Positions 1,647-9,574 of a DNA stretch of 29,532 bases are shown piece by piece. The stretch is from a virus, in the IMG/VR virus record IMGVR_UViG_3300000128_000012, positions 1-29,532 of that record; one strand, given 5' to 3'. Both the position numbers and the translations under genes were made by a program. The first letter of the stretch is position 1. Each line of letters starts with the position of its first letter. The notes beneath the pieces are model-generated. The model did not search any database, was not told the origin of the DNA, and saw nothing but the letters and a program-made list of their open reading frames with translations.

Positions 1647-4600
1647 ATGGCATCAAATCAAAAAGTATTCGTTTCACCGGGTGTGTTTACCTCTGAAGTT
1701 GACTTAAGTTTCGTAGCACAGAGTGTGGGTGTAACCACATTAGGTCTTGTAGGTGAAACTCTAAAAGGTCCAGCTTTTGAACCAATATTCATACGTAATT
1801 TTAACGAATTTACAACTTATTTTGGAGGAGCATCCCCCGAAAAATTCATAAATACACAAATTCCTAAGTACGAAGCGTCTTATATAGCTAGAGCTTATTT
1901 ACAACAATCGAATCAATTGTTTGTAACTAGAGTTTTAGGTTTATCAGGATATGACGCAGGACCGTCTTGGACAATCACAACAAAAGGTAATGTAAATCCT
2001 ACTACGGTAGATTTTTTCTGTGAAAGTGCAACAACAGTTGATTGCGTTACAGAATGTGTTGATTATAAAACTATTGATTTCTCAATCGATTTCTCAGGTT
2101 GTACTAATAACTTAGATTCGGTTTCATTTACATCACCAAATCAAATACCTGAGGTAATTTCAGAAAAACTGACAATACCTTATGAATTATTTGATGGTAG
2201 TACATCGACATTAAACAATGATATGAAATCTCAGATATTTAGTATCATTAGTACTCCGGCATCCGAAGATTACAATATTAATTATTATGGTGCAATACCG
2301 GGAAAAACTTATGACGATTTTAAAACAGTATTTACTGGAGAAACAAATGTGTTTGGTGTGGATAACGTTAGTTCAACTGAGATTGATTACTCAGCACCCC
2401 AAAACGATTCTTGGTATTACGGTTTATTCGACAATAATGGTGACGCGGCTTACAGTGGTTATTCTTATTGGTCAATAGTAACAGGGTTAACTCTTAATCC
2501 GGTTACGACAACGACAACAATAAATTCAACAACGACTACCACAACAACAGACCCATGTGTAACACCTGTACCACCGTCGACAACAACGACAACAACAGCG
2601 GCACCGGTAAATTGTTATACGGGTACATTAATCGGTAGGATTTATGTTTACTCAGGGACGGCTTATACAGATTACGATGATTTAGTTATCGCAACTTTAC
2701 GTTCAAGAGGTTTGGCAACATATTCAACTGACGACGGAGCGGTATACGAGGTTTCAGGTTTAACCGACGTTACTTTAGATTGTACCGGAACATACTCGGG
2801 TGTTACTAAAAACCCATATTCGGCGTTTGGTGTAAACATTACAAATAAAAATAACGAACAATATTTCTTTGAGACGTCATTCCAAAATTCAGACCCTAAG
2901 TACCTAAGTAAAGTATTTGGTTCATCTAACTTCGCAAAATCGAGAGCAAATGTTCCGTTGTTTGTTGAAGAAAAGTTCCAAACTTTATTAAATTACGGAT
3001 GGAGAAGTGGATTTATTAGAGGTCTTAATTGTAAGTTAAATGCTTTACCTGATGCGAGACAAGGTTCAGACCCTACGTCTATCGCATTTTATTTAGAACA
3101 ATATCAATCGGCAGAATCTCCGTGGGTAGTGTCTGAATTAAGAGGTACTAAAGTTTATAACCTTTTTAAATTTACATCGATTTCTGACGGTAATGCTTCA
3201 AATACTGAAGTTAAAATATCGGTATCAAATATTTCATTTAATAATGGTACATTTGATTTATTAGTTAGAGATTTCTTTGACACGGATGCAAATCCTGTTG
3301 TATTAGAAAAATTCACTAACTGTGCTATGGACCCAAATCAAAATAATTTTGTAGCACAAAAAGTTGGAACTGTTGACGGGGAATACTCATTAAATTCAAG
3401 ATACATAATGTTGACAATGAATGAAGACGCACCGATAGACTCATTACCATGTGGGTTCGAAGGTTATGACTTTAGAGAATATGCTGGTTCAAGACCACCT
3501 TTCCCAATTTATAAAACAAAGTATGATTTCCCAGGTGAAGTTATATATAACCCACCTTTCGGTTTAGCGTCAGGAGATGATGATATAATCAGAAGTAGTG
3601 GTGATAATGTAAGAAGAACTTACTTAGGTATTTCTAATACTATAGGTATCGATGCTGATTTCTTTAACTATAAAGGTAAACAATTACCGTTAGATATTTG
3701 TACTAGTACAACCGGAAATGAGTGGCCTTACAGAACTAAAGGTTTCCACATGGATATTAACGCAAGTGGTATTACAATTCCGGATGTTTACGCGAGTAGT
3801 GGTACTACGGCATTTTCTACGGGTGACGCTCCTTTTGTTAGAGACCCTGATAGTGAAGAAAATCCTTATTATAGATTATTCGCTCGTAAATTTACTTTCT
3901 TAGTTGCAGGTGGTTTCGACGGATGGGACATATATAGAGAAACTAGAACTAACAGTGATAGATTTGTATTAGGAAGGTCAGGATACTTAAACGGTTCTTG
4001 TTCATCAATAAAATACCCAACTGCAACAGGATGGGGAGCGTTTAAACAAATAACTGTAGGTGATAATACTCAAGGTTATGGGAATACTGATTATTACGCT
4101 TATCTATTAGGTCAAAGAACCTTTGAAAACCCTGAAGCGGTTAATATTAACATATTTACAACACCGGGTATTGATTATGTGAACAACTCAGATTTAGTTG
4201 AACAAGCTATTGATATGGTTGAGAACGATAGAGCGGATTCTATATATATCGCAACAACACCTGATTACAATTTATTTACACCAACAACGGGAGTTCAATC
4301 AGATTTGATTTATCCACAAGAAGCTGTAGATAATTTAGATAATACAGGTATTGATTCTAACTATACTGCGACCTACTACCCTTGGGTATTAACTAGAGAT
4401 AGTGTGAATAACACTCAAATCTATTTACCACCAACGGCTGAGGTTGTTAAAAACTTAGCTTTAACCGATAACATTGCTTTCCCTTGGTTCGCCGCGGCGG
4501 GTTACACGAGAGGTATAGTTAACGCAATTAAAGCGAGAAAGAAACTTACTCAAGAAGATAGAGATGTTCTTTATCAAGGTAGAATTAACCCAATTGCAAC

Positions 4601-4976
4601 ATTCTCAGATGTGGGAACTGTTATATGGGGTAACAAAACCTTACAAATTAGAGAAAGTGCTTTAGATAGGATTAACGTCAGAAGATTATTATTACAAGCT
4701 CGTAAATTAATTTCGGCTGTTTCAGTTAGATTATTATTCGAACAAAATGATGAAAAAGTAAGACAGGATTTCTTAGACGCAGTCAACCCGATACTAGACG
4801 CAATTAGACGTGATAGAGGTATCTATGACTTTAGAGTGACTGTTTCATCAGACGCATCTGATTTGGATAGAAACCAAATGACCGGTAGTATTTATATTAA
4901 ACCTACTAAATCATTAGAATTTATCGACATCACGTTCTTTATAACACCTGCGGGAGCATCGTTTGAGAACATATAA
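1647..4976 (+). CDS. gp18: Contractile tail sheath protein with inserted domains
   Basis: 1109 aa against 659 in T4 gp18. The N-terminus (VFVSPGVFTSEVDLSFVAQS, then LGLVGETLKGPAFEPIFI) is the standard start of a myovirus sheath. The last ~190 residues are the conserved sheath C-terminal domain: LPPTAEVVKNLALTDN, PWFAAAGYTRG, INPIATF, a segment around LLLQARKLI, and the closing IDITFFITPAG. Between them lie the variable, surface-exposed domains, much enlarged. Residues 125-152 carry four cysteines (C125, C133, C137, C152). Residues 287-317 contain three runs of five to seven threonines separated by INS and by a Pro/Cys segment. They lead into a compact domain (about 321-381) starting APVNCYTG and ending LDCTG. 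The sheath polymer contracts to drive the tube into the host. The gene has its own promoter and a strong terminator, fitting very high expression. Start at 1647 follows the leader AAAAACAA. Confidence 0.96.
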   Translation: MASNQKVFVSPGVFTSEVDLSFVAQSVGVTTLGLVGETLKGPAFEPIFIRNFNEFTTYFGGASPEKFINTQIPKYEASYIARAYLQQSNQLFVTRVLGLSGYDAGPSWTITTKGNVNPTTVDFFCESATTVDCVTECVDYKTIDFSIDFSGCTNNLDSVSFTSPNQIPEVISEKLTIPYELFDGSTSTLNNDMKSQIFSIISTPASEDYNINYYGAIPGKTYDDFKTVFTGETNVFGVDNVSSTEIDYSAPQNDSWYYGLFDNNGDAAYSGYSYWSIVTGLTLNPVTTTTTINSTTTTTTTDPCVTPVPPSTTTTTTAAPVNCYTGTLIGRIYVYSGTAYTDYDDLVIATLRSRGLATYSTDDGAVYEVSGLTDVTLDCTGTYSGVTKNPYSAFGVNITNKNNEQYFFETSFQNSDPKYLSKVFGSSNFAKSRANVPLFVEEKFQTLLNYGWRSGFIRGLNCKLNALPDARQGSDPTSIAFYLEQYQSAESPWVVSELRGTKVYNLFKFTSISDGNASNTEVKISVSNISFNNGTFDLLVRDFFDTDANPVVLEKFTNCAMDPNQNNFVAQKVGTVDGEYSLNSRYIMLTMNEDAPIDSLPCGFEGYDFREYAGSRPPFPIYKTKYDFPGEVIYNPPFGLASGDDDIIRSSGDNVRRTYLGISNTIGIDADFFNYKGKQLPLDICTSTTGNEWPYRTKGFHMDINASGITIPDVYASSGTTAFSTGDAPFVRDPDSEENPYYRLFARKFTFLVAGGFDGWDIYRETRTNSDRFVLGRSGYLNGSCSSIKYPTATGWGAFKQITVGDNTQGYGNTDYYAYLLGQRTFENPEAVNINIFTTPGIDYVNNSDLVEQAIDMVENDRADSIYIATTPDYNLFTPTTGVQSDLIYPQEAVDNLDNTGIDSNYTATYYPWVLTRDSVNNTQIYLPPTAEVVKNLALTDNIAFPWFAAAGYTRGIVNAIKARKKLTQEDRDVLYQGRINPIATFSDVGTVIWGNKTLQIRESALDRINVRRLLLQARKLISAVSVRLLFEQNDEKVRQDFLDAVNPILDAIRRDRGIYDFRVTVSSDASDLDRNQMTGSIYIKPTKSLEFIDITFFITPAGASFENI

Positions 4977-6655: not shown

Positions 6656-7414
6656 ATGGATGATAACTTAGTAAAGGCTGGTACTGAAAATTTCAATTTA
6701 CCACACGATGTTGTAAAATTACCCTCAGGTGGTAAATTTTATAAAAACAATAAAAAATCCGTTAAGGTTGGTTACCTAACCGCTAGCGATGAAAATATGT
6801 TAATAAATGCATTACAAAATAACGCTAATGATTTAACGTATCAATTACTACGTAATAAAGTTTATGAGCACGATATGAGACCTGAAGATTTTATCGATGG
6901 TGATATTGAAGCAATACTTTTATTTTTACGTAATACGTCTTTTGGTCCTGAATATGAGGTTAAATTACAAGACCCGGGTACTTCAAAAATGTTTGACCAT
7001 ACAATAGTGTTGGATGAACTTGACGTTATAAGACCTGAGGTTGAACCTACTCAAGACGGGTATTTTAATGTAAAATTACCTAAGTCTGAAGCGACAATTA
7101 AACTTAGACCACTTACTTTTGGTGAAAGTCGTAATATAGAATCAAAAAAACTACAATATCCTGCAAGTAGAGTGGCTCCGATTGTTAATTGGAAATTAGA
7201 GTCTCAAATAATTGAGTTAAATGGGAGTGAAGATAAGGCAAATATAAGTAAATTTATTAATGAAATGCCAATATTCGATTCAAAATTTATTAGAAAATTT
7301 TTAGATAAAAACGTTCCGGCCTTGGACTTAAAAAGGTCAATTTACGCCCCATCAGGAGAATTAGTGACATCTAATGTTGCTTTCGGGGTGGAGTTTTTTC
7401 GTCCTTTCTTCTAA
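6656..7414 (+). CDS. gp26/gp51-like baseplate hub assembly protein, probable tail-assembly chaperone
   Basis: 252 aa. The N-terminus has the family signature VKLPSGGKFYKNN (20-32) followed by VKVGYLTASDENMLINA. In T4 gp26 and relatives this reads 'LPSkGkfY...g.v.v..lta.eE..l'. The middle carries the pattern KLPKSEATIKLRPLTFGE. The end is FGVEFFRPFF, the usual 'f..eFFwp' closing strand of these proteins. T4 gp26 and gp51 assist assembly of the central hub around the tape measure gp29, and the tape measure is indeed the next gene here. The stop at 7412-7414 interrupts the usual family layout, in which a region of the type 'yR..ileeif.l' follows; that region exists in another frame directly downstream (see 7374-7556). 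The gene therefore probably gives a short form and a longer form. Confidence 0.8.
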   Translation: MDDNLVKAGTENFNLPHDVVKLPSGGKFYKNNKKSVKVGYLTASDENMLINALQNNANDLTYQLLRNKVYEHDMRPEDFIDGDIEAILLFLRNTSFGPEYEVKLQDPGTSKMFDHTIVLDELDVIRPEVEPTQDGYFNVKLPKSEATIKLRPLTFGESRNIESKKLQYPASRVAPIVNWKLESQIIELNGSEDKANISKFINEMPIFDSKFIRKFLDKNVPALDLKRSIYAPSGELVTSNVAFGVEFFRPFF

Positions 7415-7556
7415 CCACAGACAAGTTCTGCTCGAAGAGTTCTATATGATTAATAAATTCATAACTCTTTCGATGAAAGAATTTAACGAAATGCCGATAT
7501 ACGGTAGAAAATATATTATAAACAGAATAATCGAAGATAATACACCAAAGAGTTAA
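7374..7556 (+). CDS. Out-of-frame C-terminal extension of the tail-assembly chaperone
   Basis: This frame is +1 relative to the preceding gene and overlaps its end. Only the part after about 7407 looks like protein of this family: SNHRQVLLEEFYMINKF, then the segment MKEFNEMPIYGRKYI and a basic/acidic tail. It fits the 'R..i..eif.l......e...mPv..R.fyi..i' pattern that follows the FFRP-type strand in one-frame relatives. The first residues (from ATG 7374) are just an alternative reading of the upstream gene, so an independent protein from that ATG is unlikely. Expression could be by +1 or -2 frameshift (T6 at 7394-7399 or TTC-TTC-TAA at 7406-7414), giving about 299 aa. It could also be by reinitiation at ATG 7448. 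Position just before the tape measure is that of the lambda G/GT chaperone pair. Confidence 0.65.
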   Translation: MLLSGWSFFVLSSNHRQVLLEEFYMINKFITLSMKEFNEMPIYGRKYIINRIIEDNTPKS

Positions 7557-7600: not shown

Positions 7601-9574
7601 ATGGCAACACCAAACGCAGATGGTTATTTAGATAAAATGGAGAAACTACTTTCAGATTCTCTTATACCTAATGCTCAAACTTTAATTGATAAAATAAGAG
7701 AGGTTGACGAAAAAGCATATCAAGTCGTCAAAACTTTTGGTCTAAGTAATACTCAAGTAATGGCGATTAAATCGTCTTTAACTGGAGCGGCTAGTGAAGT
7801 TGAACGATTAGGGGGACAGATGCAAGATGTTCTCGATATTCAAATCGAGTTAGGTAAAGTAACAAATAGAAATATTATACTAACATCAGACTCTTTTGCG
7901 GGTATATTTGCGGCTGCGGAAGTTTCAGGTCAATCTGCGGATGACATGGGTAAGTCATTTAAAAACACCGGATTTTCTTTATATAGTATTAGTGAACAAA
8001 TGGAAGGTGTGGTTAATACCGCTAGGTCCATTGGAGTTAATGCCGCAGCTGTTTCATCACAGGTGATAGATAATATGGGTGAATTAAATAGGTTTAACTT
8101 TGAGGGTGGAGTGCAGGGGTTAGCTAAAATGGCCGCTAACGCAACTAATCTAAGAGTTGACATGAAAACCACAATGGGTTTTGCCGAAAATGTTTTTGAC
8201 CCAGAAAATGCTATTAAAATGGCGGCATCTATGCAGAGATTAGGTGTTAATGTTAGTGGTTTGAAAGACCCATTAGAGTTGATGTACAACGCTATGAATA
8301 ATCCTGAAAAATTACAAGACCAATTAGCTCAATTAGGTAAATCTTTTGTTAAAATGAATGCCGATGGTAATTTTGAAATTATGCCGGGGGCTAAAAGAAG
8401 ATTAAGAGAATTAAATTCAGAATTAAAACTTCCTGCTGGTACACTTGAACAAATGGGGTTAGCATCAGCAGAGTTAGATAAAAAGATGAGTCAAATTAGG
8501 ATGCCTTCAGGGTTAAATCTTAGTAAAGAACAACAAACAATGATTGCTAATATGTCTGAGATGAAAGACGGGGTGGCGACAATTAAATTTACGGATGACA
8601 AAGGGGAATCTCAAGAAAAAAATGTGATGTCGTTAGAGGCGAAAGACTTGGAAGCTATTGCGGAAACAGGGAGACCTAAATCTATTGAGGAGATTCAAAA
8701 AGGACAACTAAATCTTCAAGAAAGAATAAACGCGTCACTTACTGTTATAAAAAATAAAGTGGCTACGGGTGTCGCCGGAGCTAAAACTACGGATGATGCT
8801 TTTAAAGGAGCGGCGAAAGTAGAAACAGTATTATATGATTTTATAAGTGATAGTTTAGGTAAGACTAGTAAAATAAGTAGTACTTTTGATAAAACATCGG
8901 ATGTTTTAATTGACTCTATAGAAAATTTAGTATCGGGTGAACAAAGTCTAAGTGAGGTTTTTACTAATATAGGGTCTGTTGGTAATGAAATTGCAACACA
9001 ATTAAATGAAAATTTTAAAGTCGCTCTCAGTAATGCGGAAACTAACCTTGATAAATTTGCAAGTGGTGATAATAAAATTGTACCTCTGTTGGAGGAGTTA
9101 ATGGGAAAAATGAAGACGGTAGGGAATAATTCTCAAACACCGATTACACCGGTTGAAGATTTTATAAAAATGCCCGGAATGACAATAGAGCCGTTAGCGA
9201 AAGATACAATATTTGGAGGTACAGGGTTCGAAAGTTTTATCGATGGTCTTAAAGAAATGAAGACCCTTCCTAATAAGACAATGGGGGTTAATAATGGTGA
9301 ACTTGAAAGAATGGCGTTAGCTTCGGCAAAGTTAAGTAATAAAAGTAACGAACCTCAAACACCGATTGAGACAAAATCTACCGCAGATATTAATTTAAAT
9401 ATAAAAATAGACGCTCCCAATCAAATAGATACTAATCAAATTATTTTAGCCTTGGAAAACCAAGGGGTAAAACAAAAATTATATCAGTCTATGAAAGAGG
9501 CCATGTACAATAATGGGTTAAGTGCTCCAACTTCTTCTAAAACTAAACTAATGAACCCTTATCTTAACCGCTAA
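7601..9574 (+). CDS. Tape measure protein (gp29-like)
   Basis: 657 aa, close to T4 gp29 (590 aa). It sits directly after the chaperone and before the baseplate genes, the usual place of a tape measure gene. The protein is mostly predicted helix with heptad-like stretches and many Ala, Met and Lys. Segments such as FAGIFAAAEVSGQSADDMG, AAVSSQVIDNMGELN and MAASMQRLGVN are typical of helical tape measure proteins. The end has a beta-strand stretch INLNIKIDAP followed by a final helix NQGVKQKLYQSMKEAMYN, also usual for the family. It fixes tail length and is likely released through the tube on infection. No membrane segment is clear and there is no lysozyme motif. The start follows AAATGTAAATT. 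Family assignment relies on position and composition more than on a signature motif. Confidence 0.78.
   Translation: MATPNADGYLDKMEKLLSDSLIPNAQTLIDKIREVDEKAYQVVKTFGLSNTQVMAIKSSLTGAASEVERLGGQMQDVLDIQIELGKVTNRNIILTSDSFAGIFAAAEVSGQSADDMGKSFKNTGFSLYSISEQMEGVVNTARSIGVNAAAVSSQVIDNMGELNRFNFEGGVQGLAKMAANATNLRVDMKTTMGFAENVFDPENAIKMAASMQRLGVNVSGLKDPLELMYNAMNNPEKLQDQLAQLGKSFVKMNADGNFEIMPGAKRRLRELNSELKLPAGTLEQMGLASAELDKKMSQIRMPSGLNLSKEQQTMIANMSEMKDGVATIKFTDDKGESQEKNVMSLEAKDLEAIAETGRPKSIEEIQKGQLNLQERINASLTVIKNKVATGVAGAKTTDDAFKGAAKVETVLYDFISDSLGKTSKISSTFDKTSDVLIDSIENLVSGEQSLSEVFTNIGSVGNEIATQLNENFKVALSNAETNLDKFASGDNKIVPLLEELMGKMKTVGNNSQTPITPVEDFIKMPGMTIEPLAKDTIFGGTGFESFIDGLKEMKTLPNKTMGVNNGELERMALASAKLSNKSNEPQTPIETKSTADINLNIKIDAPNQIDTNQIILALENQGVKQKLYQSMKEAMYNNGLSAPTSSKTKLMNPYLNR

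Follow-up and report, generated by a model that had tools for sequence, protein, structure and literature searches.

Results

The locus and its gene neighbourhood

The window, by which we mean the whole analysed stretch of 29,532 bases (32% G+C), is a virus record that carries T4-type tail genes. Within it, ORF1 (Table 1) matches PF12322 with an E-value of 3.8e-10 (40.2 bits, cut-off 24.5) and phrog_150 with an E-value of 5.9e-14. The bit score against phrog_150 is 53.1 for ORF1 alone and 58.7 for the long protein fused across both frames. The ORF1 product ends in GVEFFRPFF, and the +1 frame is open from a point 5' of the candidate slip site through to the TAA at 7554-7556. A T6 run lies at 7394-7399 and the sequence TTC-TTC-TAA at 7406-7414. 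An earlier note on this DNA had placed the ORF1 stop after FFRPFF at 7412-7414 with a continuation in the +1 frame, and these coordinates were confirmed; position 7374, from which that note counted the feature, is simply where a mechanically listed ORF has its first ATG.

Table 1. Features of the chaperone locus, in window coordinates.
Feature	Position	Strand	Evidence
ORF1, short form, 252 aa, T4 gp26/gp51 family	6656..7414	+	PF12322, phrog_150, AlphaFold2 model
G-rich SD-like stretch GGGGTGGAG, possible stimulator	7385..7393	+	GGG conservation, anti-SD pairing
Candidate slip site TTT_TTT_CGT	7394..7402	+	TTT-TTT-CG in 45/45 distinct junctions, single-codon columns, CGN codon bias
+1-frame extension, 51 codons, proposed C-terminal domain of long form, predicted three helices	7401..7553	+	Open +1 frame in clade A relatives to the end of the extension or contig, profile chain to T4 gp51 C-terminus, structure model
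Frame-0 stop TAA, end of short form	7412..7414	+	TAA/TAG/TGA in 45 distinct relatives
Proposed long-form stop TAA	7554..7556	+	Window sequence
Putative tape measure protein, 657 aa, presumed chaperone client	7601..9574	+	Position and length only

Upstream of ORF1 lies a tail tube gene (phrog_4542, E 2.1e-26). The downstream reading frame at 7601-9574 gave no significant match in a family search (best E 0.012), nor did it match the tape measure annotated in phage immuto, and we call it a putative tape measure by position only. The likeness to the lambda G/GT arrangement drawn in the earlier note fits in outline, with the tape measure assigned in this way. Elsewhere in the window, 1647-4976 encodes a very long tail sheath protein of 1109 aa that contains Thr-rich runs; matches to sheath domains are confined to residues 810-1100, in the C-terminal part.

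Predicted structure

The AlphaFold2 model of ORF1 (window 6656-7411) has a pLDDT of 86.1, and the extension is modelled as three helices with a pLDDT of 92.0. Among predicted viral proteins, 55 matched the ORF1 model at E <= 0.001, T4-like hub proteins included, and the hub protein of SP-15 gave a TM-score of 0.80. A Foldseek comparison of the model with solved structures returned no significant match (2ob9 at rank 6, E 1.9), and a PDB sequence search found no related chain, its single match (E 0.44) being unrelated. Of 891 pre-selected PDB chains, the top one was 2ob9, the tail assembly chaperone of HK97 (Z 5.5, 79 aligned, rmsd 3.4), followed by 3klu (Z 5.2, 92 aligned, rmsd 6.2), the protein YqbN, which we take to be a tail chaperone. 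These two chains align to different halves of the ORF1 model (5-98 and 134-222, respectively). The modelled fold may be internally duplicated.

Conservation of the junction among window-type relatives

The first six related loci, L002-L007, with 55-100% identity, all keep the junction and the open +1 frame; the L007 contig ends inside the extension. A profile scan for window-type relatives (clade A) matched 126, of which the best 80 loci were analysed. The 0-frame stop is reached in 78 of these 80 (L021 and L081 are without their 3' ends), giving 45 distinct junctions. Since both scan patterns lie near the ORF1 N-terminus, the junction itself was not selected for. The slip position was located by a script that seeks a Phe-Phe codon pair, and every locus with a 3' end had one. 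A scan of genome contigs found no relatives.

All 45 distinct junctions from the best 80 of 126 clade A loci carry TTT-TTT-CGN together with an open +1 frame. The +1 extension closes within the locus in 44 of the 45, at 49-61 aa, and contains a conserved P...R motif. Its variability at the three codon positions of the +1 frame is 0.408, 0.305 and 0.561, which reads as the pattern of coding sequence. Furthermore, pN is lower than pS in 123 of 124 pairs, and the median pN/pS in clade A is 0.70, only mildly below 1. In the comparison with relatives that the earlier note proposed as a check, both frames, the T6 run and the TTC-TTC pair are kept.

Codon usage at the junction points to the place of the shift. 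Of the 76 degenerate codon columns that are conserved in clade A, only 7 use a single codon, and five of these seven sit at the junction (GGG, TTT, TTT, TTC and TTC). The corresponding numbers are 3 of 75 in clade B (TTT, TTT and CCT) and 2 of 90 in clade C (TTT and TTC), the two further groups described below. In 55 of 55 distinct clade A ORF1 sequences, both TTC codons keep their third-position C, which is synonymous in frame 0 and forms the second position of Ser codons in the +1 frame. Hence the TTC pair in clade A and the CCT in clade B are explained by +1 coding, which implies that the +1 frame is already in use at these codons and that the slip occurs upstream, at the T run. In two clade A loci, L022 and L033, the +1 frame has a stop that ends 5 nt ahead of the slip codon, and frame 0 has its stop 15 nt after this codon.

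The codon after the T run is also unusual. Outside the slip, Arg in the clade A ORFs is encoded by CGN in 19% and by AGR in 81% of cases, with CGC in 0 and CGG in 1 of 457. At the slip, the 55 clade A sequences have CGC (22), CGG (15), CGT (9) or CGA (9) and never AGR, such that CGC and CGG make up 37 of 55. In the window's listed genes, TTT followed in frame by CGN occurs once in 9,208 codons, namely at the slip. The constraint on this codon may be the residue that it gives in the +1 frame (Ala, Gly, Val, Asp or Glu) rather than slowness, and in these alignments codon rareness and +1 residue identity appear inseparable as causes of CGN at the slip.

Clade B and further candidate +1 cases

A scan with gp26 of Microcystis phage Mel-JY01 as the query matched at least 600 viral stretches, of which the best 80 loci were examined (clade B). 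The 66 distinct junctions with a 3' end in this set have TTT-TTT-TG (61), CTT-TTT-TG (3) or TTT-TTT-TA (2). At this Phe-Phe position, which is the one used in clade A, TTT is followed by T, with an open +1 extension, in 66 of 66, and 64 of the 66 extensions close within the locus, at 65-114 aa. Mel-JY01 ORF1 matches phrog_150 (E 9e-12) and gave no match to PF12322. Since TTT is followed by C in clade A and by T in clade B, re-pairing of the Phe-tRNA one base downstream would be possible in both.

Isolates with a +1 overlap are Flavobacterium phage immuto, Mel-JY01, GXN1, SP-15 and RM378. The immuto junction reads AGC TTT CTT TGG, where the slip could fall at either TTT_C or CTT_T. The SP-15 gp26 matched only SP-15 itself among viral contigs. 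A scan with the LR756508 protein yielded 20 loci. Eighteen of these have a 3' end and together give 13 distinct junctions, of which the 11 with an open +1 frame read TTC-TTT-TGG (9) or TTT-TTT-TGG (2). When loci L268-L285 were compared, L277 and L283 were found to have lost the slip motif, and here the extension is an ORF in another frame that has an ATG of its own. We read these two loci as a natural switch from frameshift to separate gene.

Some small annotated ORFs are the tail ends of extensions, called from an internal Met start. They include 36 aa in immuto (L008:4833-4943), 39 aa in SP-15 (L011:4797-4916) and 40 aa in phiAS5 (L266:3262-3384), the last annotated as a 'baseplate hub assembly catalyst'.

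A probable -1 branch in cyanophage-type relatives

In cyanophage S-SSM7 (L176), gp26 and a 63-aa 'gp51' are annotated as neighbours. With the S-SSM7 gp26 as the query, at least 600 stretches were matched and the best 80 of these were kept (clade C, L181-L260). All 76 distinct junctions from this best 80 have the -1 motif T_TTT_TTC, and in 77 of 77 distinct ORF1 sequences the last base of the codon before TTT-TTC is T. An open -1 frame follows, in one case running off its contig. In four members the -1 frame has a stop that ends 4 nt ahead of the slip codon, and frame 0 has its stop 6 nt after this codon. Of 75 extensions, 59 have their first ATG at codon 3 and the other 16 have it later or earlier. 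As codon 3 holds the ATG in only these 59, the slippery site is better conserved than a separate start for 'gp51'. The annotated cyanophage 'gp51' looks like a -1-frame extension of gp26. The junctions of phiAS5, RL2RES, LR756511 and XacN1 also look like -1 cases; Cygsa01 has an open -1 frame without a good slippery site.

The cyanophage-type pair resembles the window in position, in the Phe-Phe codons and in the homology of its two parts. In contrast to the window, its shift would be -1 rather than +1, an SD-like stretch lies farther upstream and the second part often has an ATG.

Possible stimulators

The Gly codon just 5' of the slip is GGG in 55 of 55 distinct clade A ORF1 sequences, compared with 123 of the 753 Gly codons that these ORFs contain in all. 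Pairing with the anti-SD is strongest in clade A for 8-mers that end 4-5 nt before the second Phe codon (mean -6.9 kcal/mol) and in clade C 11-13 nt before that codon (mean -8.1 kcal/mol), against backgrounds near +0.3 (sd 2.3-2.6). An SD-like 4-mer lies close upstream in 33 of 33 distinct clade A stretches and in 23 of 62 from clade B. SD-like elements that stimulate frameshifting have a short spacing for +1 shifts (about 3 nt in prfB) and a long one for -1 shifts (dnaX). The spacings in clades A and C agree with this rule, which is suggestive, the signal in clade B being weak.

A second SD-like minimum lies about 36 nt upstream of the slip (window about 7341-7360), also in clades A and B, where GGAG or AGGA is found at this distance in 24 of 33 and 46 of 62 stretches, respectively. 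The clade A one-codon columns GCC and GGA lie at this minimum.

Downstream of the slip, clades A and B showed little predicted RNA structure (mean z -0.7 to -0.95), with 5 and 3 of 25 folds below z -2 in clade A and 5 and 4 of 25 in clade B. For clade C, 16 and 13 of 25 fell below z -2 in single-sequence folds compared with mononucleotide shuffles; RNAalifold on 48 clade C sequences predicted no pair and no consensus structure.

Homology to T4 gp26 and gp51

T4 gp26 and gp51 both belong to PF12322, gp51 over residues 1-201 of 249 and with an extra C-terminal stretch. In the alignment to phrog_150 (length 282), gp26 reaches position 235 and gp51 position 280. Profile comparison linked the C-terminus of gp51 to the clade C extension (97.2%, E 2.9e-11), this to the clade B extension (91.2%, E 1e-6) and the latter to the clade A extension (98.3%, E 1.5e-14). 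None of 60 column shuffles reached any of these three scores. Compared directly, the clade A extension and the gp51 C-terminus match weakly (26.7%, E 7e-4). Direct profile matches of clade A ORF1 to T4 gp26 (2.4%) or to the N-terminal part of gp51 (0.8%) were not significant; the link for ORF1 runs via clade C, with 75% between the clade A and clade C ORF1 and 98.7% between clade C and gp26, and through the PF12322 and phrog_150 families.

By this profile chain through clades B and C, the predicted long form carries a C-terminal stretch of the gp51 type, and T4-type phages would carry the short and the long form as two genes. The T4 proteins and those of the window belong to one homologous family, with a short form and a long form that has a C-terminal helical stretch. 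In T4 these are two genes on opposite strands, whereas the window would have one gene with a frameshift.

Discussion

Our favoured reading, to which we give a probability of roughly 90%, is that one gene gives rise to a short and a long tail assembly chaperone through programmed +1 frameshifting, with the slip at TTT_TTT_CGT. Sequence comparison establishes that both frames and the slip site are conserved, that both frames are under selection and that the gene is homologous to gp26/gp51. The suggestion in the earlier note of a programmed frameshift in a gp26/51-type protein is strongly supported by this conservation.

We infer that the shift occurs, at a rate that would let most ribosomes stop at TAA 7412 and release the 252-aa short form. 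A fraction would slip by +1 while the CGN Arg codon, which is rare in this phage, waits in the A site. The Phe-tRNA in the P site would move from TTT 7397-7399 to TTC 7398-7400, so that C7400 is skipped, and the G-rich stretch just upstream possibly helps this slip. The slipped ribosomes would then read GTC CTT TCT TCT AAC and on to TAA 7554, giving a long form of 299 residues whose helical C-terminal domain is homologous to the C-terminal end of T4 gp51. If the roles are like those of lambda gpG/gpGT, the short form would be the one that coats the tape measure, and recruitment of tube subunits would fall to the long form.

The main alternative is that the two frames are separate genes, the second one starting by a restart at ATG 7446-7448 or from the in-frame upstream ATG 7374. 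Both ATGs exist in the window, although the position 7448 given for the restart in the earlier note is in fact the G of that codon, and an SD-like AGGAG lies about 36 nt upstream. In the distant relatives L277 and L283 the extension does form an ORF that has an ATG of its own, and 59 of 75 clade C extensions (from the best 80 of at least 600) have an ATG at codon 3. However, L277 and L283 are the ones that lost the slip motif, and the starts are poorly kept in clade A. An ATG at the position of 7446 is found in only 3 of 45 distinct clade A sequences, which speaks against the reinitiation named as a rival in the earlier note. Moreover, 32 of the 45 have no ATG from the slip to codon 22, and L035 lacks ATG, GTG and TTG alike as far as codon 22, even with the upstream overlap included. 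The +1-frame ATGs that lie upstream vary in place (index -9 in 11 of 33, -11 in 4 and -13 in 1), and separate genes would leave the one-codon TTT-TTT columns and the CGN at the junction unexplained. We consider two separate genes unlikely.

Other routes into the same frame are less probable again. The earlier note had offered two sites, and while a +1 slip on the T6 run fits the data, a shift at the stop codon on TTC_TTC_TAA (7406-7414) is very improbable. TTC-TTC-TRA is invariant save for the type of stop, and a stop codon in the A site is a known pause, but the C positions of the TTC pair are accounted for by +1 reading that has already begun, re-pairing from TTC to TCT would be poor, and clades B and C keep the Phe-Phe codons without TTC-TTC before the stop. 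A -2 slip on the T6 run, also raised in that note, would reach the same final frame with one extra Phe, and the window's TTT could indeed re-pair two bases back within T6. In relatives with TTC-TTT (9 of 13 distinct junctions in the LR756508 set, and GXN1) a -2 slip would land on TCT, whereas +1 re-pairing would still be possible, and we hold the -2 slip to be marginally less probable even than a shift at the stop. As for the idea that the T run carries an error of sequencing or assembly, or that the gene is broken, homopolymers are prone to indel errors, but contigs from different metagenomes with 50-100% protein identity share the frame relation and the extension evolves as coding sequence, with the excess of pS over pN described above. 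The same frame relation and junction in relatives refute a single-base error, and this explanation has a negligible chance. A +1 slip at the T run remains the preferred reading.

The frameshift of lambda G/GT is a -1 shift. Both lambda gpG/gpGT and SPP1 gp17.5/gp17.5* are pairs of a short and a frameshift-extended long chaperone encoded before the tape measure, as is proposed here, and the window likewise has an overlapping second frame and a conserved recoding site. Those systems differ from the window in being -1 and from siphophages, whereas the window would be +1 and is T4-type. As regards a -1 slippery heptamer, the window and clades A and B have the +1 arrangement, and -1 was found only in clade C and some others. 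The SPP1 gp17.5* shift is described as a putative -1 at UUUUUUC (PMC6316719). A frameshift extension has also been proposed, with an argument from conservation, for the TAC of Pakpunavirus Adele and the Andersonviridae, at GTTTTT (PMC12846349); these phages are contractile-tailed like the window's T4-type phage, and their shift is -1 rather than +1.

For the mechanism, parallels are prfB (CUU_UGA) and SPP1 gp17.1* (CCC_UAA), where, as proposed here, the P-site tRNA slips by +1 at a slow A-site codon. Of the three parts of a prfB-type signal, the window has a slippery P-site codon and a presumably slow A-site codon, and the third, a close SD-like stretch, is regular in clade A but found in a minority of clade B; unlike these unrelated genes, the window has a sense codon rather than a stop in the A site. 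In the context of prfB, UUU counts among the codons ranked next in slipperiness, according to a passage in PMC10885494. The influenza PA-X site (UCC UUU CGU C), likewise a P-site slip by +1 at a slow A-site codon, has a UUU CGU C core identical to that of the window, in an unrelated gene (PMC6165434).

A two-gene chaperone, with a short and a fused long form, has been reported in T4-like phages (Vladimirov, Gautam and Davidson, Virology 2022, 566:9-15, PMID 34826709). A passage citing that work (PMC10885494) states that some T4-like phages use a short gene and a fused long gene, not frameshifting; it does not name the genes, and presumably genes 26 and 51 are meant. In PMC12846349 (2025), poly-T -1 signals are cited as known in T4-like TAC-N genes. 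A chaperone of two lengths and its two-gene T4-like version are known already, and we did not find the +1 sense-codon version described. The use of frameshifting in a T4-like gp26/51 would be somewhat less notable than the earlier note expected, as the short and long T4-like chaperone has, by these accounts, been in print since 2022. No literature report of a +1 shift in the T4 gp26/gp51 family was found, which is weak evidence of absence given a thin coverage of subscription journals.

Taking the clades together, we lean towards a model where one orthologous chaperone gene has repeatedly changed its route, between +1 at UUU_YGN with an SD-like stretch nearby, -1 at U_UUU_UUC with one farther away, a separate downstream gene and two full paralogs as in T4. 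What is kept would be the short and long chaperone and not the mechanism, with the direction of the shift set by the spacing and the base after the slip. Three of these four routes turn on the same Phe-Phe codons.

If the favoured reading is true, a large group of environmental T4-type phages relies on +1 shifting at a sense codon to make its long chaperone, clade B alone having at least 600 matches, of which the best 80 were examined. The PRFect paper describes +1 shifts as having no known general motif (PMC10885494). A compact motif of the kind proposed here would aid the annotation of a C-terminal domain that is now labelled 'hypothetical' or 'gp51', or is cut short.
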